A stretch of 64,000 bases of DNA, taken from Flavobacteriales bacterium (lineage in GTDB: Bacteria > Bacteroidota > Bacteroidia > Flavobacteriales_D > Cryomorphaceae). The position numbers and the translations under genes were made by a program. This document shows, in pieces, positions 7,764 through 40,763 of this stretch. How positions within the stretch are numbered: position 1 is the first letter of the stretch; each line of letters begins with the position of its first letter. The notes under the pieces were generated by a model, which did not search any database, was not told the DNA's origin, and saw only the letters and a program-made list of their open reading frames with translations. The DNA is taken from contig JAKVAV010000008.1 in assembly GCA_022448105.1 (NCBI GenBank), forward strand, positions 1 through 64,000, read 5' to 3'.

Positions 7764-7786
7764 CTTAGAATTAGTGTGTTTATTGC

Positions 7787-22450: not shown

Positions 22451-24718
22451 TTAAGGATGAAAATATAACTTGATTTTGTGGGTGTCAATAGCTAATTTAA
22501 ATTCTCCTGATTCGACTATATTTTCCAATTCAGAATTCACGAATTCAAAGTCATTTTTTGCCAAGTAAAAATTAACTTCAGTTGAGTCATTTGGTTCGAT
22601 TTCAATTTTTTTAAATCCTTTTAATGATCTGTTCTTGGGTACGATAGAAGCAAACAAATCAGATACATATAATTCCACAACTTCTTTTCCTTTTACTGCC
22701 CCAGTATTTTTAACCATGACAGAAACTTGAACCGTATCAGTGTACGTAAATGAGTCGCCATTCAAAATTAAATTTGAATAAGAGAAATTTGTATAACTCA
22801 ACCCATGTCCAAACTTATATTGAGGGTCATAAGCTTCAAAACCAAATCCTTTGTCTCTCGCATCCGCTTTTGCATGATCATAGGACCATATTGCTCCTGA
22901 ATATTTTGGATAAGTAAATGGAAGTTTACCGCTGGGATTAGCATCGCCGTAGAGGATTTCAGCAATTGCTAACCCTCCTTCGTTACCGGGTAAGTAAGCC
23001 AATACTATGGATTCAACGAGAGGCTCAATTTCTTCAATCAAGCGAGGCCTCCCTTCAAGTAATATCAGGGTAATGGGTTTTCCGGTTTTAGAAAGTTGTT
23101 TGACTAATTCTATTTGACATTCTGGGAAGTCAAGTTCATCGATATCACTTGGCTTTTCAGTGGAAGGTAGTTCCGATAGCGCAATAACAACTCTATCTAC
23201 GCCTGCTGCCATTTGTACTGCTTTTTTTATGTTCACAGCAACATCGTAATCGGAGCCCTGCGTCCAACGAACTTTGTCTTTTCCAACCTTGGCCTCCAAA
23301 GCTCCTTTCAGGGTAAGCTTCTGCTTATCATTAAAAGTGGTGTCTTGACCACTCCATGTTCTTGACCAAGCACCGTTCAAAGAGTTAATAGAATTACTTC
23401 CAGCTCCAGTCAGTAAAATTGTTTCTGATCTCCTTAATGGAAGAGATTCATTTTCATTTTTAAGGAGCGTGATTGATTCAATGGCCATCTGTTTTGCAAT
23501 CTCAGCGAATTCATCAGAACCATACAATGGATAGATAATAGGATCGCTTTGAATCTGATCAAATAGACCCATTTTGTGTTTTACATAGAGGATTCGACGC
23601 ACAGCATCATTGATCCGATTGATTGAAACTTCACCATCATCTACCAAATCCAACAGGTGCTCGGCGAAACTTGCGTCGTAAGGCTCCATGCACATATCTA
23701 ACCCTGCATTCACAGAAATTTTCACAGCTTCACGCTCGTCTTTGGCTACTTGGTGTGTCTTGACAAGGTTATCAATATCGTTCCAGTCGGAGATCACAAA
23801 GCCTTTGAATCCAAGTTCTTTCTTGAGCAGATCAGTGAGCATCGACTTATCCGCATGCGAGGCCACCCCGTTTAGTGAATTGGAACTCACCATAATGGTG
23901 AGTGCTCCATTTTCAATGGCTTTTTGAAATGGGGGTAGGTAGTCCTGAAGGACTATTCTTTGAGGAAGGTAGACAGCTGCCCGATCTTTTCCATTGTGAG
24001 GAGCGCCGTAACCAATAAAGTGTTTCAGACATGCCAATCCTGAATAGGGTGACAACAAGGAATCAGATCCACCACCTTTTATCATGGCAAGGCCGAGCTC
24101 TGAAGCGATGTACGTGTCTTCGCCAAAAGTCTCAAACGTTCTTCCCCATAGGGGCTCTTTTGTAACGTCTAGAACTGGAGCATAATTCCAATGAATGCCA
24201 GACGCTCTCATTTCGTAGCTGGTAATTCTTCCTATCTCTGAGGCCACTTTTCTGCTTCGGCTAGCGGCTATTCCAATTTGATGCGGAAACAAAGTGGAGC
24301 CCGCAGAATAATTGGCTCCGTGAACAGCATCGATTCCGTACAAAACGGGAATTTTGTGTCTCGTATTTTCTGCTACATAATCTTGGATTAGTCCGATGTT
24401 CTGTCTCCATTCTGCTGGGCTAAAAGGGTACGTGCCAAGGTTTTGAATCGAACCTACTTTGAAAGAATCCAGATAGAGTTTCATCTTTTCTGGATCCAAA
24501 ATAACGGTATCTCTTCTGTCCCAGAATTCGCCCTCCGCTAGCGCCATTAAGCTCAAATTAGTCATTTGGCCAACTTTCTCCTCAAGACTAAGCTGTGAGA
24601 GGAGAGAATCAGCAAATTGCATGGATGGATCTCTATCCGCTGAATCGCTTCCATTTTTTGGGTTGCAACTGGTAAGCAGCAAAGCGAAAAATAGCGCTAT
24701 GTAACCGATTATTTTCAC
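22451..24718 (-). CDS. GH3 beta-glucosidase lipoprotein
   Basis: Exo-acting beta-glucosidase (BglX-like) of 755 residues that would release glucose from beta-1,3-glucan oligosaccharides. A lipobox (LLLTSC, lipid on C18) places it in the periplasm or on the outer membrane. The GH3 N-terminal barrel shows WGRTFETFGED and CLKHFIGYG. The nucleophile is D311 in GFVISDWN. The second alpha/beta domain and a C-terminal fibronectin III-like domain (FGHGLSYTNFSYSNL onward) are complete. Its ATG overlaps the stop of the GH16 gene by four bases, so the two are translationally coupled. The substrate is inferred from the GH16 neighbour. Confidence 0.93.
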   Translation of the reverse strand: MKIIGYIALFFALLLTSCNPKNGSDSADRDPSMQFADSLLSQLSLEEKVGQMTNLSLMALAEGEFWDRRDTVILDPEKMKLYLDSFKVGSIQNLGTYPFSPAEWRQNIGLIQDYVAENTRHKIPVLYGIDAVHGANYSAGSTLFPHQIGIAASRSRKVASEIGRITSYEMRASGIHWNYAPVLDVTKEPLWGRTFETFGEDTYIASELGLAMIKGGGSDSLLSPYSGLACLKHFIGYGAPHNGKDRAAVYLPQRIVLQDYLPPFQKAIENGALTIMVSSNSLNGVASHADKSMLTDLLKKELGFKGFVISDWNDIDNLVKTHQVAKDEREAVKISVNAGLDMCMEPYDASFAEHLLDLVDDGEVSINRINDAVRRILYVKHKMGLFDQIQSDPIIYPLYGSDEFAEIAKQMAIESITLLKNENESLPLRRSETILLTGAGSNSINSLNGAWSRTWSGQDTTFNDKQKLTLKGALEAKVGKDKVRWTQGSDYDVAVNIKKAVQMAAGVDRVVIALSELPSTEKPSDIDELDFPECQIELVKQLSKTGKPITLILLEGRPRLIEEIEPLVESIVLAYLPGNEGGLAIAEILYGDANPSGKLPFTYPKYSGAIWSYDHAKADARDKGFGFEAYDPQYKFGHGLSYTNFSYSNLILNGDSFTYTDTVQVSVMVKNTGAVKGKEVVELYVSDLFASIVPKNRSLKGFKKIEIEPNDSTEVNFYLAKNDFEFVNSELENIVESGEFKLAIDTHKIKLYFHP

Positions 24719-25995
24719 TTTAATTTTTGGTACACGCGGACGTAGTCGACCATCATTTTCTGTGATTCTACGGTTTTATCCATTCCCATAAGACCTCCCC
24801 AACCGCCTCCCATGGCTAGATTGAGAATTAAGTTTTGAGGTTTTGAAAAGGGCCAGGAGAGCTCGGTCGTATTGTCGTCGTATCGGAAATAGATTTCGTC
24901 GTCAACGTAGGCTTCTATGTAATCAGAAGTCCAAATCACTCCGTATGTGTGGAAATCATCGTTCATGCCGTATACATCAACAGTTCCTGTAGGTTGATTC
25001 CCAAGTTTGAAGTAGTACGCTCCGCAATGAGCGCTGGCATGTGCAATTCCGTTACCGGTTTCGTTTTCCATTTCGTAACCTACACTTTCCAGAATGTCAA
25101 TCTCGCCGCAGTAAGGCCATGATTTTTCATCCACATATTCATCTCCAAGGGTCCACCCGGCTGCCCAGTTGCCCTTCTCCGCTGGCACCTTGGCTCTAAA
25201 TTCAATTTTACCATAAACAAAAGATGACTTTCCTCGTGTAGTTAATCGCGCTGAAGTCCAAGGCGATCCCATGTCATTTTTGTGTGCCTCGATGATTAGG
25301 TTGCCATCTTCGAGTCGTGCGTTTTCAGATCGGGCTACCGTGTAGTACTGCAATTCTCCATTGCCCCAACCCCAATCTCCAATATCATAATTCCATTTGG
25401 TTGTATCAGGTGTGCCAACCCCTTCGAACTCGTCCGACCACACTAGCTCCCATTCATCGCCATCCATATTTTGGGTATATGTTACTGGTGTAACTTCATG
25501 TTTTCGAATGAGTTCAATCGAAACTTCTGATATCTGAGCCGATGCAGTAGAGTGGATTTTAATTTTGTGATTACCTGCTCTTAGAGGGCTTCCGTCTCTG
25601 TGCACTCTTTCTAATTCTCCAGAACCTGGGACATGCATGTGACTGGTGGTGTTGTAGGTTCTTCCATCCAAATTGTCCACATGATCCTCAAGCCAAACCT
25701 GTGTGCTGTCATTGTATGACAAGGAGGAAAAAGTTACGCGGTATCGACCAGACTCTGGAACGTCAATAGAATATGCTGCCCAACCCTTATCACTGAAGGA
25801 AAGACGATTTTGATCATAAGCCGCAGCATCGCTCATAGAGTCAGTTGAACTTAAGTCGATAGAGATTATCTCAGGCCTGTTTTCAGCCAGTATCTCTTTA
25901 GATTCTTCTTGGGTCTGTCCCTCCTGATTTTCACAGGCGGAAAGTGCAGCGATTATTAAGAAGGATGAGACATATACGAATTTAGCTTTGGTCAT
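24715..25995 (-). CDS. GH16 endo-beta-1,3-glucanase (laminarinase) lipoprotein
   Basis: A 426-residue lipoprotein (lipobox ALSAC, C21) with an N-terminal CBM6-like beta sandwich (about 40-165) followed by a GH16 catalytic domain (about 180-426). The catalytic motif is intact: E298-I-D300-I-L-E303, with E298 as nucleophile and E303 as acid/base. The surrounding WPYCGEIDILE and the WGWGNGELQYYT stretch are of the laminarinase subfamily rather than agarase or carrageenase type. Four-base overlaps join it to the MFS porter upstream and GH3 downstream, so the three form one operon for cutting beta-1,3-glucan and using the products. Confidence 0.93.
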   Translation of the reverse strand: MTKAKFVYVSSFLIIAALSACENQEGQTQEESKEILAENRPEIISIDLSSTDSMSDAAAYDQNRLSFSDKGWAAYSIDVPESGRYRVTFSSLSYNDSTQVWLEDHVDNLDGRTYNTTSHMHVPGSGELERVHRDGSPLRAGNHKIKIHSTASAQISEVSIELIRKHEVTPVTYTQNMDGDEWELVWSDEFEGVGTPDTTKWNYDIGDWGWGNGELQYYTVARSENARLEDGNLIIEAHKNDMGSPWTSARLTTRGKSSFVYGKIEFRAKVPAEKGNWAAGWTLGDEYVDEKSWPYCGEIDILESVGYEMENETGNGIAHASAHCGAYYFKLGNQPTGTVDVYGMNDDFHTYGVIWTSDYIEAYVDDEIYFRYDDNTTELSWPFSKPQNLILNLAMGGGWGGLMGMDKTVESQKMMVDYVRVYQKLK

Positions 25996-27551
25996 TTTTT
26001 TATCAGTATTGCCTCGAGTTCTTCGAGTGATTTTCCTTTTGTCTCAGGAACTCTTAGCGCAATGAAAATCACACCTACTAGTGCAAAAAGGCCATAAATT
26101 AGGAAGGTCATTGTACTTCCAATTGTGGAGAGTTCCCACGGGAAAACAAATTGCACTCCAGCACTTACTGCTGAATTGACAAAGCCCACAAAAGAAATGG
26201 CTACACCCCTTATTTTTAGCGGGAATAGCTCTGAGAATAGCACCCACATCACAGGACCCAGCGAAATCGCGAAACACGCCACAAATCCGAGAATTCCCAC
26301 CAAGATCAGACTCGGATTCATCGATATGGCGGCAGTTATAACTTCTGATTCAAATTCTTTTGCTTTAGCATCTCCTAAGGCATTTCGGCAGGCATCCTTA
26401 TAAGCTACGTCGTTTTCGAAGTTTTGACCTACCAATGGCTCCAATTGAGCTCGTATTTCAGTATTACTGATCATGGCTAGCTTCTCTTCCGTCAGAGAAT
26501 AGCTAGCGGTGCTAAATCCGTAAGCCAATACGCCCATAAAAATGGCAATACCACTTACTCCTATGAGCAATAATGGTTTTCTTCCAAGTTTATCTATCAA
26601 AAGCATTGCGAGTATGGTGAAAACTAAATTGGTCAGCCCCACTAAAATGGCTTGAATAAACGAAGCATCCGTTCCAATACCAGATTGCTCGAATATCATA
26701 GGAGCATAAAAGAAAACAGAATTGATACCCGTAATCTGCTGTAGGATTCCTACTACAATACCAATGGTAAGAACCAATGTAAACGCTGGTTTGAATACTT
26801 CAGTGAGTGGTGTTTTTTCTTTCCCTTTATCCTGTTTCAATGTTTCTTGAACTGCGACAACGTCAGCTCGTGCCTCATCCTCTTCTCGAAATTTGCACAT
26901 TACTTCAAAAGCCTCTTTTTCCTTTTGCTTCATTAAAAGCCATCTTGGACTTCGAGGTACCAGGTACAAGCCGAAGAAATACAACACTGCTGGAACGGCT
27001 TCAACTCCGAGCATCCATCTCCAATTATTTTCTTTAATACCCAAAGTTTCAACCCATGTGGCATCCGAGTCTCCAAGAGAAAGAATGTAAAAGTTGGAAA
27101 AAAAGGCTAGAGAAATTCCTATCACGATGTTCAGCTGGTTAAAGGATACCAGCTTACCTCGTTGTTCAGGAGGCGCGATTTCTGCAATATACATCGGTGC
27201 CAAAATTAATGAGGCACCTACGCCGATGCCACCGAGCATGCGCAAGACCAAAAACAGTGCAAAGTTTGGTGCAAGGGCCGAACCTATTGCGGATATGGTA
27301 AATATTACCGCACAAATTCTTAGCAGGGCTTTTCGGCCATATTTATCACTTAATGGTCCCGCTAATATCATTGCTAGTGCAGCAATGATTGTCAAGGAAC
27401 TCACCGAGAATCCCAACTCTAAATCCGTGAGATTGAAATCGATCTGCACAAACTTATTCACTCCAGAGATTACCGAAGCGTCAAATCCCATCAGTAATCC
27501 TCCCAACGCAACTATGGTTGCAACGATGACTATAAATCCGTTCTTATTCAT
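25992..27551 (-). CDS. MFS sugar porter (sugar/H+ symporter family)
   Basis: Inner-membrane transporter of 519 residues with about 12 membrane segments and the sugar-porter signatures: DKYGRKALL after helix 2, PRSPRWLLMKQKE before the central loop, DKLGRKPLLL after helix 8 and PETKGKSLEELE near the C-terminus. QQITGINSVFFYAP is the helix-7 sugar-binding motif. An extended insert of about 50 residues lies between helices 9 and 10. It is the first gene of the porter-GH16-GH3 run and would import the glucose or short glucans released by them. Upstream there is a 138-bp gap with a terminator for the previous operon. Confidence 0.93.
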   Translation of the reverse strand: MNKNGFIVIVATIVALGGLLMGFDASVISGVNKFVQIDFNLTDLELGFSVSSLTIIAALAMILAGPLSDKYGRKALLRICAVIFTISAIGSALAPNFALFLVLRMLGGIGVGASLILAPMYIAEIAPPEQRGKLVSFNQLNIVIGISLAFFSNFYILSLGDSDATWVETLGIKENNWRWMLGVEAVPAVLYFFGLYLVPRSPRWLLMKQKEKEAFEVMCKFREEDEARADVVAVQETLKQDKGKEKTPLTEVFKPAFTLVLTIGIVVGILQQITGINSVFFYAPMIFEQSGIGTDASFIQAILVGLTNLVFTILAMLLIDKLGRKPLLLIGVSGIAIFMGVLAYGFSTASYSLTEEKLAMISNTEIRAQLEPLVGQNFENDVAYKDACRNALGDAKAKEFESEVITAAISMNPSLILVGILGFVACFAISLGPVMWVLFSELFPLKIRGVAISFVGFVNSAVSAGVQFVFPWELSTIGSTMTFLIYGLFALVGVIFIALRVPETKGKSLEELEAILIKK

Positions 27552-27689: not shown

Positions 27690-29018
27690 CTAGTTGGCTA
27701 CGATTATTTTGCCAGTATTATTCTTGCCGTCAACCTGCACATTAAAGAGGTAAATTCCATCTGAAAAGTCAGCAGTATCGAATTCAATATATTGTTTTCC
27801 TACAGCTTGATTGGCGACGCTTATATTCTCAATAACTCTTCCTGTAATGTCAGTTAGAGTAATATTCACATCACTATTTTCAATAAGGCTATACTCAATT
27901 GTAAAGGCATCAGTAGCCGGGTTAGGGAAGGCTACGATATTTTTTATTAAAACTTCTTCTTCTGTAGAAACTACTCCAGATACTGTCATATTATCAAAGA
28001 AATACACATCACTATTGTTAGTGCCTGGATCAAAAAGGATAACAAATTGACCGATATCAGGATTTTCAGATTGAGAACCGACATTGAAAGATACTGTTTC
28101 CCAAGATCCTTCACCTGCTATAAATGAAGGGTAGGCTTCAATGACGTCATTGTCAACCGTTTGCAGTGAGAGTGTGAGTGGTTTTGGTCCCGCATCTCCC
28201 CAAACATCCAGGGTAATAACGCTGGTTGGTCCTAAATCCAGATTTCCGTCAAAACGACCAATCAAAACATCATCTACTTCTCCGCCATTTCTGGTGTATG
28301 TAGCTACAAAGTCAGAACCATTGGTTTCGTCAGGCCCTGGATTCACTACTCTTCTGAAATTAATTCCAGAGTGCGAGAAAATATAATTTACGTTTTGTTG
28401 ACATTCGAAATCGTTGAGAACTGAGACATCTTCTTGCACATCTTCACAAGGATCGTTGGCCAATTCTGGGCCCCTCAAATTGTCAAAAAAGTACGTATCG
28501 TCAGTATTTGTTCCTGGAGCGAAAAGCAAAACTAATTGATCAACACTGGTATTTGGAATACTGGCATCGGGTTGCTGGTCAAATGTAAATGTTAGCGGTT
28601 CCCACGCATTTGCCACCGTAGTTTGTGCTAGATAAATGGAGTGTCTTCCTGTAGGGAAGTTGTCTGGGAGAGCTGCTGCTGCGTTTTCTAAGGTGATTTG
28701 AACAGTAATGTTTGGTGCGGGACTGTATACATTAATGGTCATTTGCTTAGTTCCATTTACGTAGTCAGTCAAGTCAGCCATGACGCCTTCCATAACTATA
28801 ACATCAAAGGCTTCTGCAGGATTTCTTGTGTACGTAGCAGACACTTCGCTGAAATTGACACCGTTTGGAAAAAGATTCTGAGAGTAAGGTATAAAAGTTC
28901 CGCTGATGAAGCCATAAGTCGCTTTTCGAGAATCTTCGAAATTGTCCCAAGTTATCTGGGAATGTCCTGTCATTGCTATGGCGAGAATTAATAAAGTTGC
29001 CAGGTAGATTTTTTTCAT
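27690..29018 (-). CDS. T9SS-secreted protein with two glycan-binding-like modules
   Basis: A 442-residue secreted protein with signal peptide MKKIYLATLLILAIAMTGHSQ. It has two modules of about 165 residues: the first begins WDNFEDSRKATYGF and the second FECQQNVNYIF. Both carry VxATYTRN, MTINVYSPAP-type and WEPLTFTF-type strands and end with TYFFDN. A T9SS type A sorting domain closes the protein (FPNPATDAFTIEY, DGIYLFNVQVDG). The modules are of the same family as the three repeats in the 19741-22350 protein. It follows the GH16-like lipoprotein by 24 bp in one operon, so a secreted beta-glucan-binding function is inferred. Confidence 0.8.
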   Translation of the reverse strand: MKKIYLATLLILAIAMTGHSQITWDNFEDSRKATYGFISGTFIPYSQNLFPNGVNFSEVSATYTRNPAEAFDVIVMEGVMADLTDYVNGTKQMTINVYSPAPNITVQITLENAAAALPDNFPTGRHSIYLAQTTVANAWEPLTFTFDQQPDASIPNTSVDQLVLLFAPGTNTDDTYFFDNLRGPELANDPCEDVQEDVSVLNDFECQQNVNYIFSHSGINFRRVVNPGPDETNGSDFVATYTRNGGEVDDVLIGRFDGNLDLGPTSVITLDVWGDAGPKPLTLSLQTVDNDVIEAYPSFIAGEGSWETVSFNVGSQSENPDIGQFVILFDPGTNNSDVYFFDNMTVSGVVSTEEEVLIKNIVAFPNPATDAFTIEYSLIENSDVNITLTDITGRVIENISVANQAVGKQYIEFDTADFSDGIYLFNVQVDGKNNTGKIIVAN

Positions 29019-29042: not shown

Positions 29043-29960
29043 TTATTGATAAATTTTGACGTAGTCAATAATGAATTCTTGACTGGGTGAAGAGAATGGA
29101 TTGAGGACACTGAAAGGCACATTAGCTCCCCCATTACCTCCTAGTGCAAAATCAAGAACTAAAAAATAATTTTGATCTAATATCCAAGATGCGGGGAGAA
29201 TCGAAGACCTTGTCGCGGGCACATCCACAGGAACATCGTCAACAAAGAATTGGATGCAGTCACTATTCCACTGCAATGTGTATATGTGGTAGTCTGCTGA
29301 AAAATCTACTGAATCATTTTCTGGGAAAGAAAACTGGTAATCAATGCTCGTTTGCTCTCCGCTTGTGTCGGCATATGAAATGTAACTAAGCACCTCACTA
29401 GTGTTTATCCCATTGCTCCTCATAGCTCCCAATTCTGCGAGATCAAAAATGTTATTCTCCTCTCTTGTTGGCATTAGAAATATTGAAGGCCAGAGTCCTT
29501 CTCCAGAGGGAACGATGGCTCTTACTTCAATTAGGCCACTATTGAGGGTGAATTTATTTTTTGTCGTCAGTCTGGCTGAAGTAAAATTATTTTCTTGAAA
29601 GGGAGGATTTTCAAATCGCCCAATAAGCTTCAAATTTCCGCTATCGATTCTGGCGTTTTCAATTCTATTCGTGAACAGTTGCTGTTCGCGGTCATCCCAA
29701 AAGCACTCCTTAATTGTATCAGGTCCTATAACAGTGATAGTGGTATCTCGACACTTGCCAGTCATAAAAGTCCAAGTTGCGGTTGTGTCAATGATATCTG
29801 TATCAAATTCCTCGTCCAGCACCAAAGTCAAATTGGTTTTTGAGATGAAGTTACATCCTGCAACTTCCTGCACCTCTTTTGTGCAGCTTTGGAGAGTTAG
29901 TAGAGCAACACATAAAGTTGCGCTGATGGTTACCTGATCTATTTTCGGAAGTCCAGACAT
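29043..29960 (-). CDS. GH16-like lipoprotein lacking the catalytic nucleophile
   Basis: A 305-residue lipoprotein (lipobox TLQSC, C26) covering a full GH16 fold: DEEFD at the start, FTSARLTTKNKFTLNSGLIEVRA, then the active-site strand, and FIIDYVKIYQ at the end. At the ExDxxE motif it reads I171-F-D173-L-A-E176, so the nucleophile Glu is replaced by Ile while the helper Asp and the acid/base Glu remain. A Cys-containing insert (C70, C86) replaces the usual Trp-rich loop. It is therefore probably not a normal hydrolase and may serve as a surface glucan-binding protein. It is the first gene of an operon with its own promoter and operator next to the regulator gene. Confidence 0.85.
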   Translation of the reverse strand: MSGLPKIDQVTISATLCVALLTLQSCTKEVQEVAGCNFISKTNLTLVLDEEFDTDIIDTTATWTFMTGKCRDTTITVIGPDTIKECFWDDREQQLFTNRIENARIDSGNLKLIGRFENPPFQENNFTSARLTTKNKFTLNSGLIEVRAIVPSGEGLWPSIFLMPTREENNIFDLAELGAMRSNGINTSEVLSYISYADTSGEQTSIDYQFSFPENDSVDFSADYHIYTLQWNSDCIQFFVDDVPVDVPATRSSILPASWILDQNYFLVLDFALGGNGGANVPFSVLNPFSSPSQEFIIDYVKIYQ

Positions 29961-30191: not shown

Positions 30192-33089
30192 GTGAACAAA
30201 ATCGAAGTATGTAAAAGGTGTCTGCTTGACATCATGCTTGTGCTATTTTCTTTATCCACGTTGGGTCAGGTTGAAAGTCCATTGATGTCGATCTACAATA
30301 AATCGAATCATGGAGGAGGTACTCAAAATTGGGCTATAAATGTTGCTGAAGAGGGAGTGGTTTTGGTTGGTAACAACAGTGGTGTTTTGGTATTTGATGG
30401 CCAAGTATGGGATATTCAGAGTTTACCTAATAGGACTTTCGTCCGTTCGTTGTATCAATCGAAGGAGAAAGACCTGTTTGTTGGCGGGCAAAATGAAATT
30501 GGCTTTTATAGAAACAGTCAAGTCAAATCGGATCACTACAAAAGTTTGAGAGAGTTCGTACCCTCTGATTACCAGGATTTTGAAGATGTTTGGAAAATTT
30601 TTGAGATCAAAGGATCGATTTATTTCTGCACAGAGAAAGCTATATTCAGGTTTACCGGTGATTCTTGCACCGTGATTGAACCTACTCATGATAGATTTGA
30701 GAATTTCTTCTCATTTAATAATCAATTATACGTCCAAGAGTTTGATCTGGGGCTCAAGGTCTACAATTCTAATGCATTTGAGGATTTCATAGATGATCCA
30801 TTACTTAGAATAAATCGAATCTCTGAAGTGATCTCTTGCGATGGTGATTCATTGTTGATTTTTACACAAAATGCGGGGATTTATAGCTATTACGATGGAG
30901 TCTTGTCGGGCATGTCAAAGGAAGTTCAGAATCGAACACTGTACTCAAAAATATATTGCGCAACTGAGCTCCATAATGGGAATATTGCTGTTGGAACTAT
31001 CCAAAACGGGCTATTAATTCTCTCGAGAAATGGTGAAATCATTCAAGAGTTAACAGAAAAGGATGGGTTACCCAATAAAACAGTGTTGTCTTTATGCGAA
31101 GACAGGTCAGGTAATATTTGGCTCGGACTGGATAATGGACTGGTATATGTTGAAATCAACTCTCCCTTTACCAAGATTAGCGAGTTTTCTGGTGTTGAAG
31201 GCACAGGTTATGCAGCAATTAAAAGGAGGGATCTCGATTATTTTGGCACCAATTTAGGATTGTATCAAGTCTCGACTGATACCCTAAAGACAAAAGTAGT
31301 TTCAAAAGTTCTCTCGGGTCAAATATGGAATCTCCAAGATTATGAAGACGGACTTATTGTTAGTGGTGATGGAGGGGCGAAATATTTTAATGGGAACTCT
31401 TGGGTGGATGTCTCGAACGTCAGGAGTTCATGGAAGTTTTTGCCCGTTGAAGGAAACCGCGAATTATATCTACAAGGTACATACAGTGGTCTTTATCTCT
31501 ACAAAAAGAGTGGAGCAGAAAATCAGCCACTTGAGCTGATAGGGAAGATGGAGGGTTTTGATGAATCGACGAGAATCTTTGAATTTGATTCAGATGGTTA
31601 CGTATGGGTTTCACATGCTTACCGAGGTTTGTTTAGGTTAAAACCAGATTATAACAATTTAGGCTACTCGGAAATAAAAAGGTTTGGAAAATCGGAAGGG
31701 CTTCCTGATGATTTTTACATAACTGTTTCGAAAATTCGAGGTGAATTAGTTTTCGCCACCGAAGAAGGTGTTTTTCGATTTAATAAGCTAGAGCAGAGAT
31801 TTGCTGTTCATGACGAAATAACTCAATTGCTGGGTCCAAATAAAAATGTTCAGAGATTAATTGAAGACAATCTAGGTAATATTTGGTTTTCTACTGCAAA
31901 TGAATTTGGCTTAGTTCACATCAGAGAAACGGGGGTTTACAACAACGTTGAGGTTATTTACTTCAATCAAATTCAAGGAGATTTAGTTGATGGTTTTGAG
32001 AATATATTCAGTACCGATGACAATATTGCGTACATACCAATCGAAGGTGGTTTCTACAAGTATGACTTGAGTTTAACCGAAAGGTCCCCTGAATTCGAGT
32101 ATTCGTTGAGGATTGATGAGGTCTATACCACCAATGGTAAGGACTCGGTTATTTTCTCCTTCGGCAGTTTTGATATTTCTAAAGAGTATGAGCATCTGAA
32201 CGAAGAATCAGATTTGAGATTCCATTTTAACCTGCCAACCTTTGGGAAACTGAATGAGGTGGCGTACTCGTACAAATTGGAAAACGAAGATCAATATTGG
32301 TCTGAGTGGACAAATGATCACGTAAAGGAATACTCAAATTTATCTTCTGGAAATTACTCCTTTGCAGTAAAAGCGAAAGATGGGTTCGGAAGGATCTCTG
32401 AGGCCGCTTCTTTTGACTTTTTTATTTCTCCACCCTGGTTCAAAACTATAATCGCACAAGTATTTTTCGTTGTTATTGGCTTCCTCTTCATTCTATCTTT
32501 TGTGAAGTATATTTCAATTCGCGAAGCAAAGAAGACCGAATTAGTAAAGCAACAGTCAAGAATAACCATTCAAGAAAAAGAGCAGGCTCTCCAAAGAGAA
32601 AAACAAAAATCTGAGAGCGAAATAATCAGGCTTCGTAATGAAAAGTTAAGGGCTGAAGTAAGCCATAAGAATGCAGAGTTAGCCTCTACGACAATGCATT
32701 TAGTGCAGAAGAGTGAAATGCTTCAAAATGTCAAGAAGGAACTAACAGATTTGAGTAAGCATGGGGATGATGGTTTAAAGAGCCGAATAAAACAGATACA
32801 GAGATTAATTACTGATGATGTTCGTCTAGATAAGAACTGGGAACGATTTGAAACACATTTTGATCAGGTGCATGAGAATTTTTTCAAGAATCTTCGATCA
32901 AAATACCCTGATTTAACTCCCAAAGACCAAAAACTTTGCGCCTACCTAAGGATGAACTTAGCAACGAAAGAAATTGCTCCTCTACTAAACATTTCCGTTA
33001 GAGGTGTGGAGATCAGTCGATACCGACTCCGTAAAAAATTGGAATTGGATTCAGAGGTAAATCTCGTCTCCTTTATAATGGAAATCTAG
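30192..33089 (+). CDS. Membrane-spanning sensor/transcription regulator (Reg_prop propeller, Y_Y_Y, LuxR-type HTH)
   Basis: A 965-residue one-component regulator starting with GTG. A signal anchor is followed by a periplasmic seven-bladed-type propeller with repeated GNIWLGLDNGL/GNIWFST blades (about 30-680), a Y_Y_Y domain (about 690-745), one membrane helix (about 748-774, TIIAQVFFVVIGFLFILSFV), a cytoplasmic coiled coil (about 780-870) and a C-terminal LuxR-like HTH (about 905-965, LTPKDQKLCAYLRMNLATKEIAPLLNIS). There is no histidine kinase or receiver domain, so it differs from hybrid two-component systems and resembles SusR-type regulators. It lies between the glucan operons and probably binds glucan oligosaccharides in the periplasm and DNA at the GATGTA direct repeats. 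Confidence 0.85.
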   Translation: MNKIEVCKRCLLDIMLVLFSLSTLGQVESPLMSIYNKSNHGGGTQNWAINVAEEGVVLVGNNSGVLVFDGQVWDIQSLPNRTFVRSLYQSKEKDLFVGGQNEIGFYRNSQVKSDHYKSLREFVPSDYQDFEDVWKIFEIKGSIYFCTEKAIFRFTGDSCTVIEPTHDRFENFFSFNNQLYVQEFDLGLKVYNSNAFEDFIDDPLLRINRISEVISCDGDSLLIFTQNAGIYSYYDGVLSGMSKEVQNRTLYSKIYCATELHNGNIAVGTIQNGLLILSRNGEIIQELTEKDGLPNKTVLSLCEDRSGNIWLGLDNGLVYVEINSPFTKISEFSGVEGTGYAAIKRRDLDYFGTNLGLYQVSTDTLKTKVVSKVLSGQIWNLQDYEDGLIVSGDGGAKYFNGNSWVDVSNVRSSWKFLPVEGNRELYLQGTYSGLYLYKKSGAENQPLELIGKMEGFDESTRIFEFDSDGYVWVSHAYRGLFRLKPDYNNLGYSEIKRFGKSEGLPDDFYITVSKIRGELVFATEEGVFRFNKLEQRFAVHDEITQLLGPNKNVQRLIEDNLGNIWFSTANEFGLVHIRETGVYNNVEVIYFNQIQGDLVDGFENIFSTDDNIAYIPIEGGFYKYDLSLTERSPEFEYSLRIDEVYTTNGKDSVIFSFGSFDISKEYEHLNEESDLRFHFNLPTFGKLNEVAYSYKLENEDQYWSEWTNDHVKEYSNLSSGNYSFAVKAKDGFGRISEAASFDFFISPPWFKTIIAQVFFVVIGFLFILSFVKYISIREAKKTELVKQQSRITIQEKEQALQREKQKSESEIIRLRNEKLRAEVSHKNAELASTTMHLVQKSEMLQNVKKELTDLSKHGDDGLKSRIKQIQRLITDDVRLDKNWERFETHFDQVHENFFKNLRSKYPDLTPKDQKLCAYLRMNLATKEIAPLLNISVRGVEISRYRLRKKLELDSEVNLVSFIMEI

Positions 33090-34376
33090 TTAAAGTTCTC
33101 CAACGCAATAAAACGGGAAGTTGGCCGTGGCAGCGTTTCCATGTCCGTCATAGATATAGAGAAAGAGTCGATAAGGTCCCTCATTTTTAGGGGCTCGGAA
33201 TTGAATCTCGCTTTTGTTCGGATCTCCTTCCATCTTCATGTCTACGGCCTCCGGTCTAGATTCTTTATCTCCTCCGACTTTGATGTCCGTACTTTCAGGC
33301 AAGATTTCCCAACGATAGGTCAACTGATCTCCATCTAGGTCTTTTGCATCGACTTTGGCTGTGGTGAGTTTTCCTGTTTCCACATAAACTCCGTCAAATC
33401 GCGTTTTTCCATTGAGGACATACTGATGAATTTGAGGGCTTCGGTTTTCTGGGTATTTTCCAGACCAGGCCAACTCTAATTCATCCATCACACCGGTTTC
33501 TTTTCCATCCTCTAGGAAAAGACCATACCAAGTAGGGGTGGTTTCTTGTTTTTGTCCCCAGAGGAATACATAAGAACCAATACACATCCAAGGGTCGCGA
33601 CGGATTCCCTGATCATAGCGCAAGGCATATGATGCAGCTTTCTCCGTGCTGGTTTGTTCTATTGGTGCTCCCCATGGTGCTTTTTCAACTTCCCAATGAC
33701 CATCAGGTCCCCATTCAGTGATAACGTAAGGTTTGTCCCAACCATAGGCTCTAAGTTGGTTGTCTATGCCAATGATTGCACCATAAGTGTTAATCCCGTA
33801 GACATCAATAGCTGGGGCTCTATCTTTAATGAGTTGCACCTCTGCGACATCCAATCCAGCTGTAACCGTCATTGTTGGGTGGTTGGGATCTTCTCTGTGA
33901 ACCATCTCTGCGATATCATTTATCGCATCCCACACTTTAAAGTCTGAATAGAACAGATCAGTTTCATTGCCGATTCCCCACATGAGGATGGCAGGATGAT
34001 TTTTGTATTCTCTAACCACCTCAGTGAATCGAGCAAGTTGTGCCTCCACGGCTCTGGAATCATCGTAATTAAAACCCTGACGTTCGCATCCTACCCACAA
34101 ACCAAACAGAACAGACATGCCTTTTTCGTGGGCCTCATCTAATACGGCAATAGCCTCATGAGCCCCCCATGTTCTAACCGAGTTTGCTCCATAAGCCTTT
34201 GCTCGATCCATTTCTGTTTGGCCGCCAACGCCAGTGATGTAGTAAGGTTCTCCTCCGCGTAATATTTGCCATTTACCTTCATTTTGAATCAATTCAACTT
34301 TTATAGCTTGACCAAAACTGAAAGTTACTAAAAGCAGGGAAGCAAGGGTGAGTGATACTTTATGGATAGGAATCAT
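33090..34376 (-). CDS. Secreted clan GH-A glycoside hydrolase (GH2 TIM-barrel / GH158-like), likely beta-1,3-glucanase
   Basis: A 428-residue protein with signal peptide MIPIHKVSLTLASLLLVTFSFGQ, a TIM barrel (about 28-300) and an Ig-like C-terminal domain (about 318-428). Clan GH-A catalytic pairs are visible: acid/base E138 in WGIGNETD at the end of strand 4 and nucleophile E221 in VITEWGPDGHWE at the end of strand 7. Automated tools would probably call it a GH2 TIM barrel, but it lacks the GH2 sugar-binding and sandwich domains. The two-domain layout and size resemble GH158, a family with laminarinase activity. It converges with the regulator gene, ending right after it, and diverges from the barrel operon. 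Confidence 0.75.
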   Translation of the reverse strand: MIPIHKVSLTLASLLLVTFSFGQAIKVELIQNEGKWQILRGGEPYYITGVGGQTEMDRAKAYGANSVRTWGAHEAIAVLDEAHEKGMSVLFGLWVGCERQGFNYDDSRAVEAQLARFTEVVREYKNHPAILMWGIGNETDLFYSDFKVWDAINDIAEMVHREDPNHPTMTVTAGLDVAEVQLIKDRAPAIDVYGINTYGAIIGIDNQLRAYGWDKPYVITEWGPDGHWEVEKAPWGAPIEQTSTEKAASYALRYDQGIRRDPWMCIGSYVFLWGQKQETTPTWYGLFLEDGKETGVMDELELAWSGKYPENRSPQIHQYVLNGKTRFDGVYVETGKLTTAKVDAKDLDGDQLTYRWEILPESTDIKVGGDKESRPEAVDMKMEGDPNKSEIQFRAPKNEGPYRLFLYIYDGHGNAATANFPFYCVGEL

Positions 34377-34606: not shown

Positions 34607-36640
34607 ATGATGATGAAAACTCTTTCTCGATTGAGATATTGTTTAGTCTTTCTTCTTTCCTTTAGTTTTTTGGTCTTGTCTGGGCAAGATAGAGTTGCTG
34701 GTGATTCTTTGTTGTCTAATGCTTCGATTAGAAGTTTTGAAGATCAATTTTTGAAGCAGTCTGCAGGGATTCAATATGATTCTCTTTTCGTAGATAAAAA
34801 ATTGCGAGAGCGACCTCAAAAATTGACGGCCTTTGGATATTACCGACTGTTTGTATATCAACGAAATATCACTGCACCATATCCCGGATTAGGTTCCTTC
34901 GATAATATTTTAAGTGTCGGAGATGGTTATCGTGAGCCCATGCTCTCCATGTCGGTTATAGCGCGTCCCAGTGGCAAGGCTAGTTTTGGAACAGAACTTT
35001 ACATGTTTACACCCTACGACGGTTCAATAGATGGGAACGTTTTTTCTACCAACCTTGGCCTTAACTTTTACGGAAACTTTAGAACGCAGCACGGAAATTT
35101 TGGAGTAAGGGCGGGTGGAATTCACTGGTATAATTTGAGCCCATTCACCATGGGCGTTTTCCAGATACTCGATCGATTTACCATTTTTGATAGAACACCT
35201 TGGGAGGGCGTGAGCAATATGGGTAAATACGACTCTTATTATAATTCTGGTCTAACCAGTGCAGGAGACCTTAGGTGGAACAACCAAGCGTTTCAAGGAA
35301 TCATATTAAATGGTGGTAACCTTCCGGGCGATTGGGCTGTAGATGTATTTTGGGGTAAAACTCAACCCAATGGTGGTTTAGCCGGGGGGTTTGATGCCTT
35401 CAATGAGGGTTTTCCAGCGGCACCAGGCCTCGACGCTGGAAATATTCCAAATTATACTCCGATCTCTGGTACAAATAGAACGCTTGCCTCCATCATTCAA
35501 GGGGGTAAAATTAGCAAGACATTCGGCCAACAAACACTTTCTTATAATGGCCTTGTAAGCAGTACCGTATTGGATAGTATAAAGACTGACAGTCTTAGGT
35601 CCTATCAAGTCCATACGCTTAGAATGGATCTTAAGGTGGCCGACATAAAAATTTCTGGTGAACTCGGAGCAGGTGCATACAAAAGCCCAACTTTAGCAGA
35701 AACATGGGGTGAGGCTTTAATGCTTAGGTTTAATGTTCCAAAAAAATACACGTACATCCCGATTGATTTTCAGGTGTACCGAATTTCAAAACATTACTTC
35801 AACGAGAATGGAGAGATTGCCACCAATTCAAATGTTGATATTCTTGAAGATAGAGGCCTAACTGTAAACGCCAATGGAGCAGGTGGGCAAATGGCTCTCG
35901 TGAATCAGTTGGTGCACAACCGGCAAGGAATCAACATCAATACTGAATTAGAGTTTGGCAACTTAAAGCTCGCTGGGGGTATCGGATGGAGTGCCGAAAT
36001 AGATCCTCAAGCAAATGCGGTGAGTTTCGTTCACAGGATCAATGGACTAGCGCTGTCCAGAATTTACAATCCATTCCCTGCGGGAGCTACTGGACCAACT
36101 GTTTTTGGCCCCTACAACAGAAAGTTTTCCTTCTTTAGAGGAGTCTCTGAAGTCGTAGAGACAACTGATTTTGATGAAATTTCCCGACGAGCACAGAATA
36201 GGAAGTTTTTTGAGGCGGTTGACATACAGGCAAAGTATGAAACTAAACTTTTCGATAAAGAGCTCTATTTCTTCTACATCGGATCATTCAATTCTGCATC
36301 TACTACTTTGGAACCAGTGCCGGTGTATAACGAAGATTCTTATGTATTTGTGCAATATCACGAATTAGATTTCTACTATGAGATTTTACCCAAATTTATA
36401 CTCACCGGCTACTATGGTATTGAGAATGCGAGAGGCGGTAATGCAACTAGATGGGATGCGGAGACCCAATTGCCACTTGATCAATTAGGAACCGCCATAG
36501 GGTTGGGCTTTGACTGGCAGATAGCACCCAATTCTGGACTCTATGTCCGCCATCGATGGATGGAATTCGAGGACAGGAGCTTTCAAGAGGATTATTTTAA
36601 AGGAACTGAACTAACCGTTGAACTCAAAACCTTTTTCTAA
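34607..36640 (+). CDS. Large predicted outer-membrane beta-barrel, first gene of a four-gene glucan-linked operon
   Basis: A 677-residue protein starting with three successive ATG codons and a signal peptide (hydrophobic core YCLVFLLSFSFLVLSGQ). After a short N-terminal region, the sequence is a long run of alternating amphipathic strands with Gly/Asn/Tyr turns (NLGLNFYGNFRTQHGNFGVRAGG, FYYEILPKFILTGYYGIEN) and ends LTVELKTFF with terminal aromatics, as in BAM-assembled barrels of 16 or more strands. There is no TonB box, plug domain or SusC motif. I do not recognise the family. It lies downstream of two GATGTA direct repeats and overlaps the next barrel gene by one base, so it probably acts with it in glucan passage or binding. 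Confidence 0.7.
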   Translation: MMMKTLSRLRYCLVFLLSFSFLVLSGQDRVAGDSLLSNASIRSFEDQFLKQSAGIQYDSLFVDKKLRERPQKLTAFGYYRLFVYQRNITAPYPGLGSFDNILSVGDGYREPMLSMSVIARPSGKASFGTELYMFTPYDGSIDGNVFSTNLGLNFYGNFRTQHGNFGVRAGGIHWYNLSPFTMGVFQILDRFTIFDRTPWEGVSNMGKYDSYYNSGLTSAGDLRWNNQAFQGIILNGGNLPGDWAVDVFWGKTQPNGGLAGGFDAFNEGFPAAPGLDAGNIPNYTPISGTNRTLASIIQGGKISKTFGQQTLSYNGLVSSTVLDSIKTDSLRSYQVHTLRMDLKVADIKISGELGAGAYKSPTLAETWGEALMLRFNVPKKYTYIPIDFQVYRISKHYFNENGEIATNSNVDILEDRGLTVNANGAGGQMALVNQLVHNRQGININTELEFGNLKLAGGIGWSAEIDPQANAVSFVHRINGLALSRIYNPFPAGATGPTVFGPYNRKFSFFRGVSEVVETTDFDEISRRAQNRKFFEAVDIQAKYETKLFDKELYFFYIGSFNSASTTLEPVPVYNEDSYVFVQYHELDFYYEILPKFILTGYYGIENARGGNATRWDAETQLPLDQLGTAIGLGFDWQIAPNSGLYVRHRWMEFEDRSFQEDYFKGTELTVELKTFF

Positions 36641-38466
36641 TGGTTAAGAAAAAGCAATTTATAATTATGAGATATATACTTGCACTTTTGGTAGTAATCT
36701 TTGGAAGCATAGAAGGTTCTGCCCAAACAGAGGGGGCTCTTTCCGATGAGGAAGCCGAGACATTCCTCGAAGGAGTTAATTTCAATGGTCTTGGCAGGGT
36801 TTATCTGCAGCAATCTGGTATAGGAGGAGATATTCTAAATGATGTCATGGTGAACGACTCTACTTCAGTTCCAGATACCCTCACGCCAAGAAATACTACG
36901 GATGGAGAATTTCTCCTAGACCTTAAGGTAAATGCAACCCCAAATAGAAAGACCGAGGTACAAGCCATACTGCGTCTGAGAAATGAATTTGGTGGATTCT
37001 TTGGTGCAGGCCAATCTATACAGGTGCGCGAACTCTGGGCTAGAGGAATAATAGGAGATCGCCTAGAATATCGCGTTGGAGATATGGACATTGAAATGTC
37101 GCCTTATACTTTCTACGTGCCAGAAGAAGAAGGTGTTATCAATCAGCCTTCAGCATTTGATATGCAGCGAGAAGTAATTTACTATGAGCAGTTTTACACT
37201 CACCAGAACTCTAGAAGAATGCAAGGTGCAAGTTTGAATTTCGGATTGAAATTCACCCAGGTTCTCAAAGAGGCTGATTTTAGCGGTTTCATAGCTCGAG
37301 TGAGGGGGACAGATTTTCTTACTATACCAACAAGATGGGTAGCGGGGGGAGATGCCAAATTTAAGACCCGCAGACTTATTGATCAAACCAAGACAAGCGC
37401 AGAAGTTGGATTTAACCTTGTACATACATTCGATGATCTGCAATCAGGAGATGCGAACACAGGTATACGCAACACCGTGTTCACAGTCGATTATGACCTG
37501 AAGGCATATGAAACTGAGAAAATGATCTACTCCTTATTTGGAGAAAGCGGACAAAGCACATTAACCTCTCTAGATGACGTCGAGACATTCTTTGAACAAG
37601 ATGATTTCTTTGTTACTGTAAGCGGTGGAGCTGAGTTTAAGGAGGATAATCTCATCGTGCATGCAGGTTATGCGGACATAGGCCCTCAATTTTTTAGCAT
37701 GGGGGCGCAAAGTAAAAGAGTAGATTTTGATGCCGCAAGGACTTACTACAATAGAGCAGGTGTAGAACAGAATGAGCGCAACACTACATTGTTCGACCTT
37801 AGTAGAGATATAGCAGTCTATACCTTCCAACTCAGTGATAAGTTGATGACATACGACCCAAGATTCTCAAATACTTTTCCTTACGGGGATGCGACTCCAA
37901 ACAGAAGAGGTTTGAGGTATGGTGCAGATTATGACCAAGAAAAGATTCAAGCTTCCTTAGATGGAGCATTGATGTCTGAAATTCAGGGTCAGGGAACAGA
38001 AGAATTAAAAGATTTTTTCATTATCCAAGCCGCTGTGGATGTGAATGTGAACAAGTTTTTGGAATGGAAGAACAAAATTAATTTCACCTTGGGATACCAG
38101 TTTGAGAATACAAACAGAGGAGGCATCGAAGTAGACCAGGTAGACTTGACTTCAAATCTCATTGAAGGAGGACTGGAATTGGAACTCTTTGATGATTTTG
38201 AACTCCTATTTGGAGCCAAAACCTTGATTTCTAAGGGGAATGATTACTTACCAAGAATTGATCAATTCGATCAAGTCGTTGATTTTCCTGAGCGTTTTGA
38301 GGTTGATGATACCGAACTATTGCTCGCTGGAGGTATAAAATACACGTTCAAGGAGGGTATTTATCTGACCTTACAATATCAATCGTTTGATGCAACAGGA
38401 AGGTCTGATGTTTTTAGAGACTACACTTTAGATCAGATTTTTGTACTCTACACCATGAACTTTTAA
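36640..38466 (+). CDS. Second large predicted outer-membrane beta-barrel of the operon
   Basis: A 608-residue protein with signal peptide MRYILALLVVIFGSIEGSAQ; the start at 36640 shares one base with the previous stop, and an in-frame ATG at 36667 gives a shorter signal. The mature part begins with a strand (FNGLGRVYLQQSGIGG) and continues as many amphipathic strands (TEVQAILRLRNEFGGFF, LEYRVGDMDIEMSPYTFYV), closing with IFVLYTMNF. This is a porin-like pattern without a plug or TonB box. It is not an obvious copy of the first barrel. It sits between that barrel and two lipoproteins with tiny gaps, so all four are probably one transcript. Function unknown; glucan passage across the outer membrane is inferred. 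Confidence 0.7.
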   Translation: MVKKKQFIIMRYILALLVVIFGSIEGSAQTEGALSDEEAETFLEGVNFNGLGRVYLQQSGIGGDILNDVMVNDSTSVPDTLTPRNTTDGEFLLDLKVNATPNRKTEVQAILRLRNEFGGFFGAGQSIQVRELWARGIIGDRLEYRVGDMDIEMSPYTFYVPEEEGVINQPSAFDMQREVIYYEQFYTHQNSRRMQGASLNFGLKFTQVLKEADFSGFIARVRGTDFLTIPTRWVAGGDAKFKTRRLIDQTKTSAEVGFNLVHTFDDLQSGDANTGIRNTVFTVDYDLKAYETEKMIYSLFGESGQSTLTSLDDVETFFEQDDFFVTVSGGAEFKEDNLIVHAGYADIGPQFFSMGAQSKRVDFDAARTYYNRAGVEQNERNTTLFDLSRDIAVYTFQLSDKLMTYDPRFSNTFPYGDATPNRRGLRYGADYDQEKIQASLDGALMSEIQGQGTEELKDFFIIQAAVDVNVNKFLEWKNKINFTLGYQFENTNRGGIEVDQVDLTSNLIEGGLELELFDDFELLFGAKTLISKGNDYLPRIDQFDQVVDFPERFEVDDTELLLAGGIKYTFKEGIYLTLQYQSFDATGRSDVFRDYTLDQIFVLYTMNF

Positions 38467-38468
38467 TC

Positions 38469-39527
38469 ATGATCATACTAAGAATTAAATCAATGTTGAA
38501 GAAGAAAATAGATATGAGACTGTTCTTGGCTATTGCACTCACTGCAATAATTGCAAGTTGTGAGCATGATAATACTGATCCTGTTGGGCCAAATTTATTT
38601 GACCGGTTTGGGCCTTTCGAGTATTTGGATTCTTTGCAAACATCCAGCGCTACTGTTGATTTTAGTGCGGGAGAAACAATCTCTTTTACAGCTGGATTTA
38701 ACAAGAACGTGCCTTGGGTGCTGACCATAACTGGTCAGACGACTGGAGCTGTAAAAACTATTACTGATTTTAGCGACGTACTTTCAGCAGGAAATTCAAC
38801 CTGGAACGGAAGTACTACTGAGTTACCACTTTTTACGAATGAAATGTGTATGGTTGTTCTCAGTGTTCCTGAGGAAACAGAATTTGCCGATACATTAATG
38901 ATCGATGTGACTGGAACCCAATCTCTTGATGCTGGTATTGTGGCTTGTGACTTTGATACCTTCGTAGTGAACGGTATACAGTTAGGCGATTTTGAATTTG
39001 AATTAACATCTGCGTCGGGGAGGAATAATGATATAACACCTGCCCAAGGTTCACATTTTTTTAGACTAGAGGGTACTGATAATGAATCCGGTGGAGCTAC
39101 CGATAACTTCTTTGTCGGTCTGGCCAGAATTTTTCCTACTGCTAATGGAAACCCAGACTTAACGTATTTCGAATTACCTACGACAGTTCCCGAACAGGTG
39201 TACTTGAATGTCTTCCTTAACGGAAGAATGTCACCATTTACAAGAATAGTATTGGGACTAATCATCGATACGAACAATTCAGGAACCTTTGATGAAGGTA
39301 CTGACGAGATTCGATCCCTAGAGTTTGATCCTTTCTACAGTGGATGGAGAATAGAGTCATTCTTAGGTTCGGATTTTGGCGCTTCGCAAGCCGATTTGGA
39401 GAGGCTCATTGGCATTGAAGCGGCCTTAATTTCATTGAATAATCTTCAGCCATCCCCTCGGGAACAGGTAGGTTTTGAAATGGATTATATTGTTTTTACT
39501 CCAAACTTACCCTTAACGACGGAATAG
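38469..39527 (+). CDS. Lipoprotein of unknown family in the barrel operon
   Basis: A 352-residue protein with a lipoprotein signal ending AIIASC; in-frame ATGs at 38493 and 38514 are alternative starts that give more usual signal lengths. The mature part is beta-rich with an Ig-like stretch (about 60-140, SAGETISFTAGFNKNVPWVLTITG) and a second beta domain (about 160-350) that contains DTNNSGTFDEGTDE, a calcium-loop-like Asp/Asn run. The gene starts 2 bp after the barrel stop. I recognise no family. Placement suggests a surface lipoprotein partner of the barrels, perhaps in the way SusD/E/F-type lipoproteins partner SusC, but it has no SusD-like TPR helices. Confidence 0.65.
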   Translation: MIILRIKSMLKKKIDMRLFLAIALTAIIASCEHDNTDPVGPNLFDRFGPFEYLDSLQTSSATVDFSAGETISFTAGFNKNVPWVLTITGQTTGAVKTITDFSDVLSAGNSTWNGSTTELPLFTNEMCMVVLSVPEETEFADTLMIDVTGTQSLDAGIVACDFDTFVVNGIQLGDFEFELTSASGRNNDITPAQGSHFFRLEGTDNESGGATDNFFVGLARIFPTANGNPDLTYFELPTTVPEQVYLNVFLNGRMSPFTRIVLGLIIDTNNSGTFDEGTDEIRSLEFDPFYSGWRIESFLGSDFGASQADLERLIGIEAALISLNNLQPSPREQVGFEMDYIVFTPNLPLTTE

Positions 39528-39542
39528 TCAATTAAAAATTTT

Positions 39543-40763
39543 ATGGATAGAAAAGTCGGTCTTGGGAGGAATAAATTGATTGTCATTTTGGCGGCATTCA
39601 CTATGCTGTGCGGCTGCGTAGAGTTTAAGCAAATTACACTTTACGACGGGATGGAGCCGGAACCACAGAAGCCGAAGCCTGTAGCGATAGGTATGGTGGT
39701 AGAACCAGAGATCTATTCTGATGATCCAAGAGACATGTGGGGCATTGAAGAGACGGTTTGTAAGAAAGCTGAGTTCAGCTATGATGAGGTTTACTCCGGA
39801 AAACAGGCAGTAAAAATTTCATGGAATAGGTACGCTGAAGGATGTGAATTTGCTGGGATCGGTATCGGATGGGATAATTGGGCTGGAAAAGACTTAACCG
39901 ATGTAATGGATCATTGCGCCATTCAATTCTATGTGCGTGCTCAGGAAGAATTGATGTATGGATTGCCTATCGTACTTACCCTGATTGACTACAGTGGTGG
40001 GATGGGCTTTGCCTATACCGGAAACAAGTGGTTTGAACGTACTTTCATTGATACCACTTGGCAAAAGATCGTCGTGCCTTTATCCGCTTTTGATCTGGAA
40101 ACAGAAAATCTGGATGTAAGTAATATCAAACAACTTCAGTTGGAGCTTCAACAAAACGGGAGTATCTACTTGGATGAAATAGATCTTGTTTTTTTCGAAG
40201 AGCCAGTAGTAGAACCGTGGTATGAAGAAGAGGCACTAGATGATCCTTTGGCTATGCCTAAAACCATTTTTGGTGATGAGTTCATCAATGGACACGGATG
40301 GGGAATGGTGGATTGGAATTGTCGGACCATTGAGATAGCTGAAGGAGAGGCTCAAAAAGGTAAAAAAGCAATCAGTGCCAAATGGGACGATTCAGGAGAG
40401 TGTGATGCGATGTTCATCGCAGCCAGTTGGAACAAGTGGCATCCTGTTGATTTTACCGTAGGAAATTACGAGGACTTTGCTTTCGAATTCTATATCTATA
40501 ATAGAGGAGAAGCTACCGCTGAATTGAATCTAAATTTTGGATTATCTGATTACAATAGAAATTATATTTCTACCAGAATTACAGGGAAATTCGCTGATAA
40601 AGACATCTTCAATCAATCTTGGACTCGCGTTTATATTCCAATTACTGAGCTGAAGGGATATTCCTTCGACTACAAGAATGTGAAGCAGCTTGGCTTTCAG
40701 TTGATCAATTCAGGGGATCTTTTGATCGACGAATTGAGAATGGTTAGAAGAAACGAGAACTAA
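39543..40763 (+). CDS. Lipoprotein with two carbohydrate-binding-like domains in the barrel operon
   Basis: A 406-residue lipoprotein (lipobox MLCGC). After the anchor it has two similar domains of about 170 residues (about 50-220 and 240-405). Each starts after a short acidic stretch, carries a CxxxAEF/AxxGKQAVKISW or CRTIEIAEG...KKAISAKW strand, a WQKIVVPLSAF/WTRVYIPITEL strand, and ends IYLDEIDLVFF / LLIDELRMVRR. This is the layout of galactose-binding-like folds such as CBM11 or CIA30. Both domains keep several Trp residues (GIGWDNWAGKD, ASWNKWHPVD) that could stack on sugars. As last gene of the operon it is the best candidate for its surface glycan-binding subunit. Confidence 0.7.
   Translation: MDRKVGLGRNKLIVILAAFTMLCGCVEFKQITLYDGMEPEPQKPKPVAIGMVVEPEIYSDDPRDMWGIEETVCKKAEFSYDEVYSGKQAVKISWNRYAEGCEFAGIGIGWDNWAGKDLTDVMDHCAIQFYVRAQEELMYGLPIVLTLIDYSGGMGFAYTGNKWFERTFIDTTWQKIVVPLSAFDLETENLDVSNIKQLQLELQQNGSIYLDEIDLVFFEEPVVEPWYEEEALDDPLAMPKTIFGDEFINGHGWGMVDWNCRTIEIAEGEAQKGKKAISAKWDDSGECDAMFIAASWNKWHPVDFTVGNYEDFAFEFYIYNRGEATAELNLNFGLSDYNRNYISTRITGKFADKDIFNQSWTRVYIPITELKGYSFDYKNVKQLGFQLINSGDLLIDELRMVRRNEN

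Follow-up and report, generated by a model that had tools for sequence, protein, structure and literature searches.

A two-barrel, two-lipoprotein operon as a probable SusCD-independent outer-membrane system in a beta-1,3-glucan locus of Flavobacteriales

Polysaccharide-utilisation loci (PULs) of the canonical type are recognised by adjacent susC and susD genes (the SusCD pair), and the beta-1,3-glucan loci of Bacteroides are reportedly an example. An "atypical PUL" for cellulose, chu_1276-1280, has been described in Cytophaga hutchinsonii, whose SusCD homologues are dispensable and not involved in cellulose use (PMC12016534). That work reports chu_1276, 1277, 1279 and 1280 to be required for cellulose use or to influence it strongly; growth of the chu_1276 mutant is poor on low glucose, and this gene has also been connected with glucose uptake (title cited there as ref. 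23). The CHU_1279 protein is required, though not its binding, and CHU_1276 also gives TonB-receptor matches (2025 paper, PMC12016534). Here we analyse a four-gene operon in a 64,000-nucleotide stretch of a Flavobacteriales genome (GCA_022448105.1, contig JAKVAV010000008.1, positions 1 to 64,000; hereafter the window), with the following genes, taken from open reading frame (ORF) coordinates.

34607..36640, plus strand: B1, 677-aa plug-less outer-membrane beta-barrel of about 22 strands, predicted by AlphaFold
36640..38466, plus strand: B2, 608-aa plug-less 22-strand barrel, predicted by AlphaFold
38469..39527, plus strand: LP1, 352-aa lipoprotein with C-E-H-D after the lipobox cysteine, surface-export-like by family motif count
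39543..40763, plus strand: LP2, 406-aa lipoprotein with two CBM30/CBM11-like domains, from Pfam, structure-profile matches and alignment

The operon probably encodes a SusCD-independent outer-membrane complex for the utilisation of laminarin-type beta-1,3-glucan. The gaps between its successive genes are -1, 2 and 15 bp, as tight as the original prediction had claimed. Like chu_1276-1280, the locus combines two outer-membrane barrels, two proteins of glycan-binding type (the second with two domains resembling carbohydrate-binding modules, CBMs) and a glycoside hydrolase (GH), and it does so without SusCD. Unlike chu_1276-1280, the window has the beta-1,3-glucan set GH158, GH16 and GH3 instead of GH9, its LP2 has diverged, and it carries a Y_Y_Y-LuxR regulator and an operator, as opposed to the extracytoplasmic function (ECF) sigma factor that PMC12016534 reports for chu_1276. 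B1, B2 and LP1 are the probable counterparts of CHU_1276, CHU_1277 and CHU_1278. With canonical SusCD loci for beta-1,3-glucan the window shares GHs, surface lipoproteins, a sensor-regulator and CBM-like glucan-binding proteins, but two plug-less barrels take the place of SusC (with its plug and N-terminal carboxypeptidase-like domain) and SusD. Neither SusC nor SusD was found within the window, as had been predicted, which leaves the operon outside the adjacent susC-susD definition.

No Pfam or NCBIfam family scores above cut-off against B1, B2 or LP1; LP1 keeps its earlier description as a lipoprotein of unknown family, and the barrels match no characterised family unrelated to glycans. AlphaFold models built with 21-23 homologues predict a barrel of about 22 strands for B1 (predicted local distance difference test score, pLDDT, 72) and a 22-strand barrel for B2 (pLDDT 84). 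Because the first long strand begins within the first 75 residues, at residue 73 in B1 and residue 46 in B2, the models leave no room for the plug that the original prediction had already found missing; Pfam gives no Plug match in either protein, and both lie outside the genome's 28 SusC-model matches. TonB independence is what the missing plug, its sole basis, would imply. The two families are distantly homologous along their length (hhalign probability 98.4%), which identifies B1 and B2, by profile comparison, as a pair of paralogous barrels. B2 has long conserved loops at 151-191 and 348-421 (SGAQSKR, PYGxATPNRxG).

Foldseek searches with both barrels returned generic barrels at low TM-scores (porins, chitoporin, AlgE, FimD/PapC ushers and TonB receptors), and such matches can neither prove nor exclude transport by B1 and B2. 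The pair resembles chitoporin/AlgE/OprD-type barrels, which are among the best Foldseek matches, in being plug-less with long loops, but it has more strands (about 22), always occurs as B1-B2 with lipoproteins, and shares no sequence similarity with them. The appearance of the AlgE alginate exporter and the FimD/PapC ushers among these matches could be read as a sign that the barrels secrete glucan or glucan-acting proteins. We regard an exporter or assembly system of this kind as very unlikely: the similarity is that of barrels in general, neither a synthase nor a chaperone lies nearby, the partners are hydrolases and binding proteins, and the type IX secretion system (T9SS) tails on secreted proteins of the locus indicate another export route.

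The two lipoproteins differ in their predicted placement. The signature C-x-[KRHQ]-[DE] follows the lipobox cysteine in 68 of 98 distinct LP1 members, against 8 of the 63 remaining lipoprotein-like ORFs from these loci, and LP1 is probably on the cell surface because this motif resembles the C-X-K-(D/E)2-X signal shown to move lipoproteins there (PMC5080379). LP2 may face the periplasm, since the surface-export signature is lacking (0 of 44 LP2 proteins). Consistent with the two CBM-like domains originally predicted, LP2 matches CBM30 in two stretches (Pfam, E=1.2e-7), and its family profile matches the CBM30 structures 2c24 and 1wmx and the CBM11 structures 1v0a/6r3m, the last of which is the structure given for CHU_1279's cellulose-binding domain (PMC12016534). 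Inspected by eye in the alignment, the N-domain of the LP2 family is conserved and the C-domain variable, being CBM9-like in some members. For LP1, comparison with solved structures gave only phospholipase C matches, which we judged spurious. Many LP2 proteins also keep a motif F[KQE]x2-3LYD, often just after the lipidated cysteine (strict form in 44 of 100), and in some it is present although a lipobox is missing; it may be a peptide that docks to the barrels.

The arrangement is widely conserved. Among 119 distinct loci (duplicates removed) with 115 B1 genes, the order B1-B2-LP1 is found in 105 of 115 clusters, with LP2 next in 65 of those, and most of the remaining clusters reach a contig end or have a next gene that was not called. 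Median spacings from B1 through B2 and LP1 to LP2 are 1, 3 and -0.5 bp, and an order kept in more than 100 clusters cannot be put down to chance. These clusters come from Cryomorphaceae, Crocinitomicaceae, Saprospiraceae, Chitinophagales and Rhodothermales. Of 100 relatives, mostly of the same order, 40 have B1; at class level it was found in 48 of 395 genomes, and B2 at phylum level in 6 of 395. The class and phylum samples were drawn differently and searched with different profiles, and the two figures are not closely comparable. Among named genomes, at least 194 stretches carry B2, with Saprospiraceae, Chitinophagales, Crocinitomicaceae, Lewinella cohaerens and Roseithermus sacchariphilus represented.

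The link to beta-1,3-glucan comes from the genes around the operon.

33090..34376, minus strand: GH158 beta-1,3-glucanase (PDB 9oro, E=1.5e-104; 6pal, E=1.2e-70)
30192..33089, plus strand: regulator, Reg_prop/Y_Y_Y sensor with a C-terminal LuxR-type helix-turn-helix (Pfam)
29043..29960, minus strand: GH16 lipoprotein with C-T-K-E after the lipobox (Pfam GH16, 2.3e-11)
27690..29018, minus strand: T9SS-secreted protein with weak CBM_4_9 similarity (Pfam), also present in related clusters
25992..27551, minus strand: major facilitator superfamily (MFS) sugar porter of the inner membrane (TIGR00879, 9.7e-102)
24715..25995, minus strand: GH16 glucanase lipoprotein (Pfam, 2.7e-19)
22451..24718, minus strand: GH3 beta-glucosidase lipoprotein (Pfam, 1.1e-68)

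The neighbour first described as GH158-like proved to be a true GH158, and strong GH158 homologues are present in 38 of 40 B1 genomes against 0 of 60 others (Fisher p=1.4e-25; the 100 relatives counted as independent), G020 and G043 being the two B1 genomes without one. For 86 of the 119 loci the stretch retrieved includes a GH158 gene; in the window it is adjacent to B1 but divergent, and in other genomes it stands in the same operon as the barrels. The GH158 enzymes so far known to us act on beta-1,3-glucan. CBM30 and CBM11 domains in known proteins bind beta-1,4 and mixed-linkage glucans, and GH16 and GH3 are broad, all of which would suit an operon serving another beta-glucan or a mixed substrate (fungal, mixed-linkage); set against the almost perfect co-occurrence of GH158 with B1, we think such a substrate distinctly improbable. 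That co-occurrence, an operator common to the GH16 operon and homologous clusters in the same order together support the reading as a non-canonical system for beta-1,3-glucan in the outer membrane.

The GH16 lipoprotein at 29043..29960 is probably on the cell surface, to judge from its C-T-K-E sequence after the lipobox. The GH158 protein is probably periplasmic, as it has a signal peptide and neither a lipobox nor a T9SS tail was seen in it. Downstream of the GH3 gene, at 19741-22488, lies a gene for a secreted protein of 915 aa that has a T9SS-like tail as well as repeated segments and may bind glucan.

The barrel and GH16 operons also share an operator-like repeat, GATGTA-N5-GATGTA.

34478-34494, plus strand: exact copy, upstream of B1
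34447-34463: copy with one mismatch, 31 bp before the 34478-34494 copy
30018-30034, minus strand: exact copy, upstream of the GH16 lipoprotein operon and divergent from the regulator

The repeat had been noted in the original prediction, and a shuffle control bears it out (0 of 100 shuffles reach 3 matches). The source assembly (3.5 Mb, 99 contigs, 92.7% complete) holds 4 exact copies, against 0 of a reversed control. Other genomes have the operator at both of these positions, usually 60-140 bp upstream of the start and frequently as a pair with a 31-bp offset. Of 26 distinct loci that carry the regulator, 22 have the operator, compared with 7 of 93 loci that lack the regulator (p=3e-14, loci counted as independent); several of those 7 are short contigs. 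The Reg_prop/Y_Y_Y/LuxR protein is our best candidate for binding the repeat. The third genome copy, on contig C1, lies just upstream of a gene for a T9SS-tailed secreted protein (L220:7956-9359), which may be a further member of the glucan regulon, and the fourth, inside an M61 peptidase ORF on contig C7, is probably there by chance. In two Rhodothermales-type loci (L073, L075), B1 is preceded by genes for a LacI-like regulator and for an additional protein weakly similar to LP1; regulation seems to have been swapped in this lineage, given the LacI-like gene ahead of B1.

Modular versions of the cluster were seen in one small order, covered here by ten genomes, where the B1-B2-LP1 block recurs in several paralogous clusters with GH16 and GH3, with GH9 or with GH18. 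The GH9 version (L190, L193, L196) consists of B1-B2-LP1, a 380-aa two-domain protein and GH9, exactly the order of chu_1276-1277-1278-1279-1280, with GH3 also in L190. The aromatic residues of the 380-aa protein (Y89, F92, F180, Y255, F258, F349) match the pattern of those tested in the 375-aa CHU_1279 (W89, F92, F180, Y253, F256, F343; PMC12016534). In the GH18 version (L189, L197, L200), B1-B2-LP1 is accompanied by GH18 and glucosamine-isomerase-like genes. The comparison suggests that the window operon, the GH9 and GH18 versions and C. hutchinsonii chu_1276-1280 belong to one modular SusCD-independent family.

Genome-wide, SusD_RagB gave 0 matches in the source assembly, whose 92.7% completeness means that some genes could be missing. 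Contig C38 carries one full-length SusC with a SusD-like_2 partner, the sole SusCD pair, but no glycoside hydrolase was found beside it among the genes examined and no GATGTA-N5-GATGTA in the stretch read. The idea that the operon replaces SusCD fails as a general rule. A genome-wide exclusion of SusD by the B1 system was rejected (SusD in 28 of 40 carriers and 33 of 60 others, p=0.15, not significant).

In the mechanism that we favour, the surface GH16 lipoprotein would cut the polymer, LP1 would capture chains at the surface, and the paired plug-less barrels B1 and B2 would pass oligosaccharides across the outer membrane. LP2, with its glucan-binding domains and probably located on the periplasmic side, would hold or stabilise the complex; hydrolysis would be finished in the periplasm by GH158, GH16 and GH3, the MFS porter would take up glucose, and the adjacent regulator would switch both operons through the shared repeat. 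Gene order, homology, co-occurrence, conservation of the operator, predicted folds and the difference in export signals were observed, and complex formation, import, its direction, substrate size, binding of the operator by the regulator and the orientation of LP2 are inferred. The main rival would have the barrels serve as a surface scaffold that anchors and organises glucan-binding lipoproteins and glucanases, sugars entering through ordinary porins or a TonB receptor elsewhere. The genome's many TonB receptors, one of them beside a GH2-like gene, are in keeping with this, and the finding that CHU_1279 is needed while its binding is dispensable fits scaffold and importer alike. An anchor would nevertheless not need as much as a conserved pair of 22-strand barrels whose long loops are conserved too, the poor growth of the chu_1276 mutant on low glucose (PMC12016534) suggests a channel, and some B1 carriers have no SusD. 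We therefore hold the scaffold to be unlikely, though the least so of the alternatives.

Several points weigh against a SusCD-independent import complex. Its function is predicted here from sequence and models; the barrel models are of moderate confidence, B1 in particular, and with generic Foldseek matches at low TM-scores a transport role is compatible with their fold rather than shown by it. The proposed homology to chu_1276-1279 runs over a bridge, through the GH9 clusters and the CHU_1279 residue pattern, and the window LP2 is weakly alike to the 380-aa GH9-cluster protein (hhalign probability 32%). SusD_RagB is present in 28 of the 40 B1-carrying relatives and absent from 12, and, with a TonB receptor adjoining the GH2-like gene on contig C9, TonB-dependent uptake may occur elsewhere.

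Beyond this locus, B1-B2-LP1 could be the core of a third general route for polysaccharide fragments in Bacteroidota and Rhodothermales, besides SusCD and ordinary porins, in which a TonB-independent, heteromeric pair of homologous barrels works with binding proteins and hydrolases that are exchanged to suit beta-1,3-glucan, cellulose or chitin; we rate this as a serious possibility, somewhat short of probable. One genetically studied example is already known, C. hutchinsonii chu_1276-1280 (PMC12016534), and the comparative family, with its glucan, cellulose and chitin versions, conserved operator and surface-export signature, is not described in the literature searched. PUL surveys rest on the SusCD pair, and because they are built on it the B1-B2 family would be missed, though present in 40 of 100 sampled relatives; automated PUL prediction in one study neglected PULs without the pair (PMC6794258). 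The cellulose system of C. hutchinsonii in turn gains a wide comparative family with soluble substrates, so that laminarin or chitin oligosaccharides, given to other species that can be cultured, offer a way to ask whether CHU_1276/1277 are importers.

The chitin-type clusters have further features of their own. In their typical layout (e.g. L189:8135-18229), GH18 lies upstream, followed by B1-B2-LP1-LP1-like and then the glucosamine-isomerase-like genes. After the latter, L189 and L200 both encode a fused isomerase and PIG-L deacetylase-like protein, and L189 also has a sodium-solute symporter. In a further B1-B2-LP1-LP1-like cluster (L188), the neighbours are LiaF-like and histidine-kinase genes together with two ORFs, of 1461 and 1297 aa. 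Beside the barrel operon of L200, at 7160-8920, a GH18 chitinase is fused to a C-terminal OmpA peptidoglycan-binding domain, a composition that suggests a cell-anchored chitinase.

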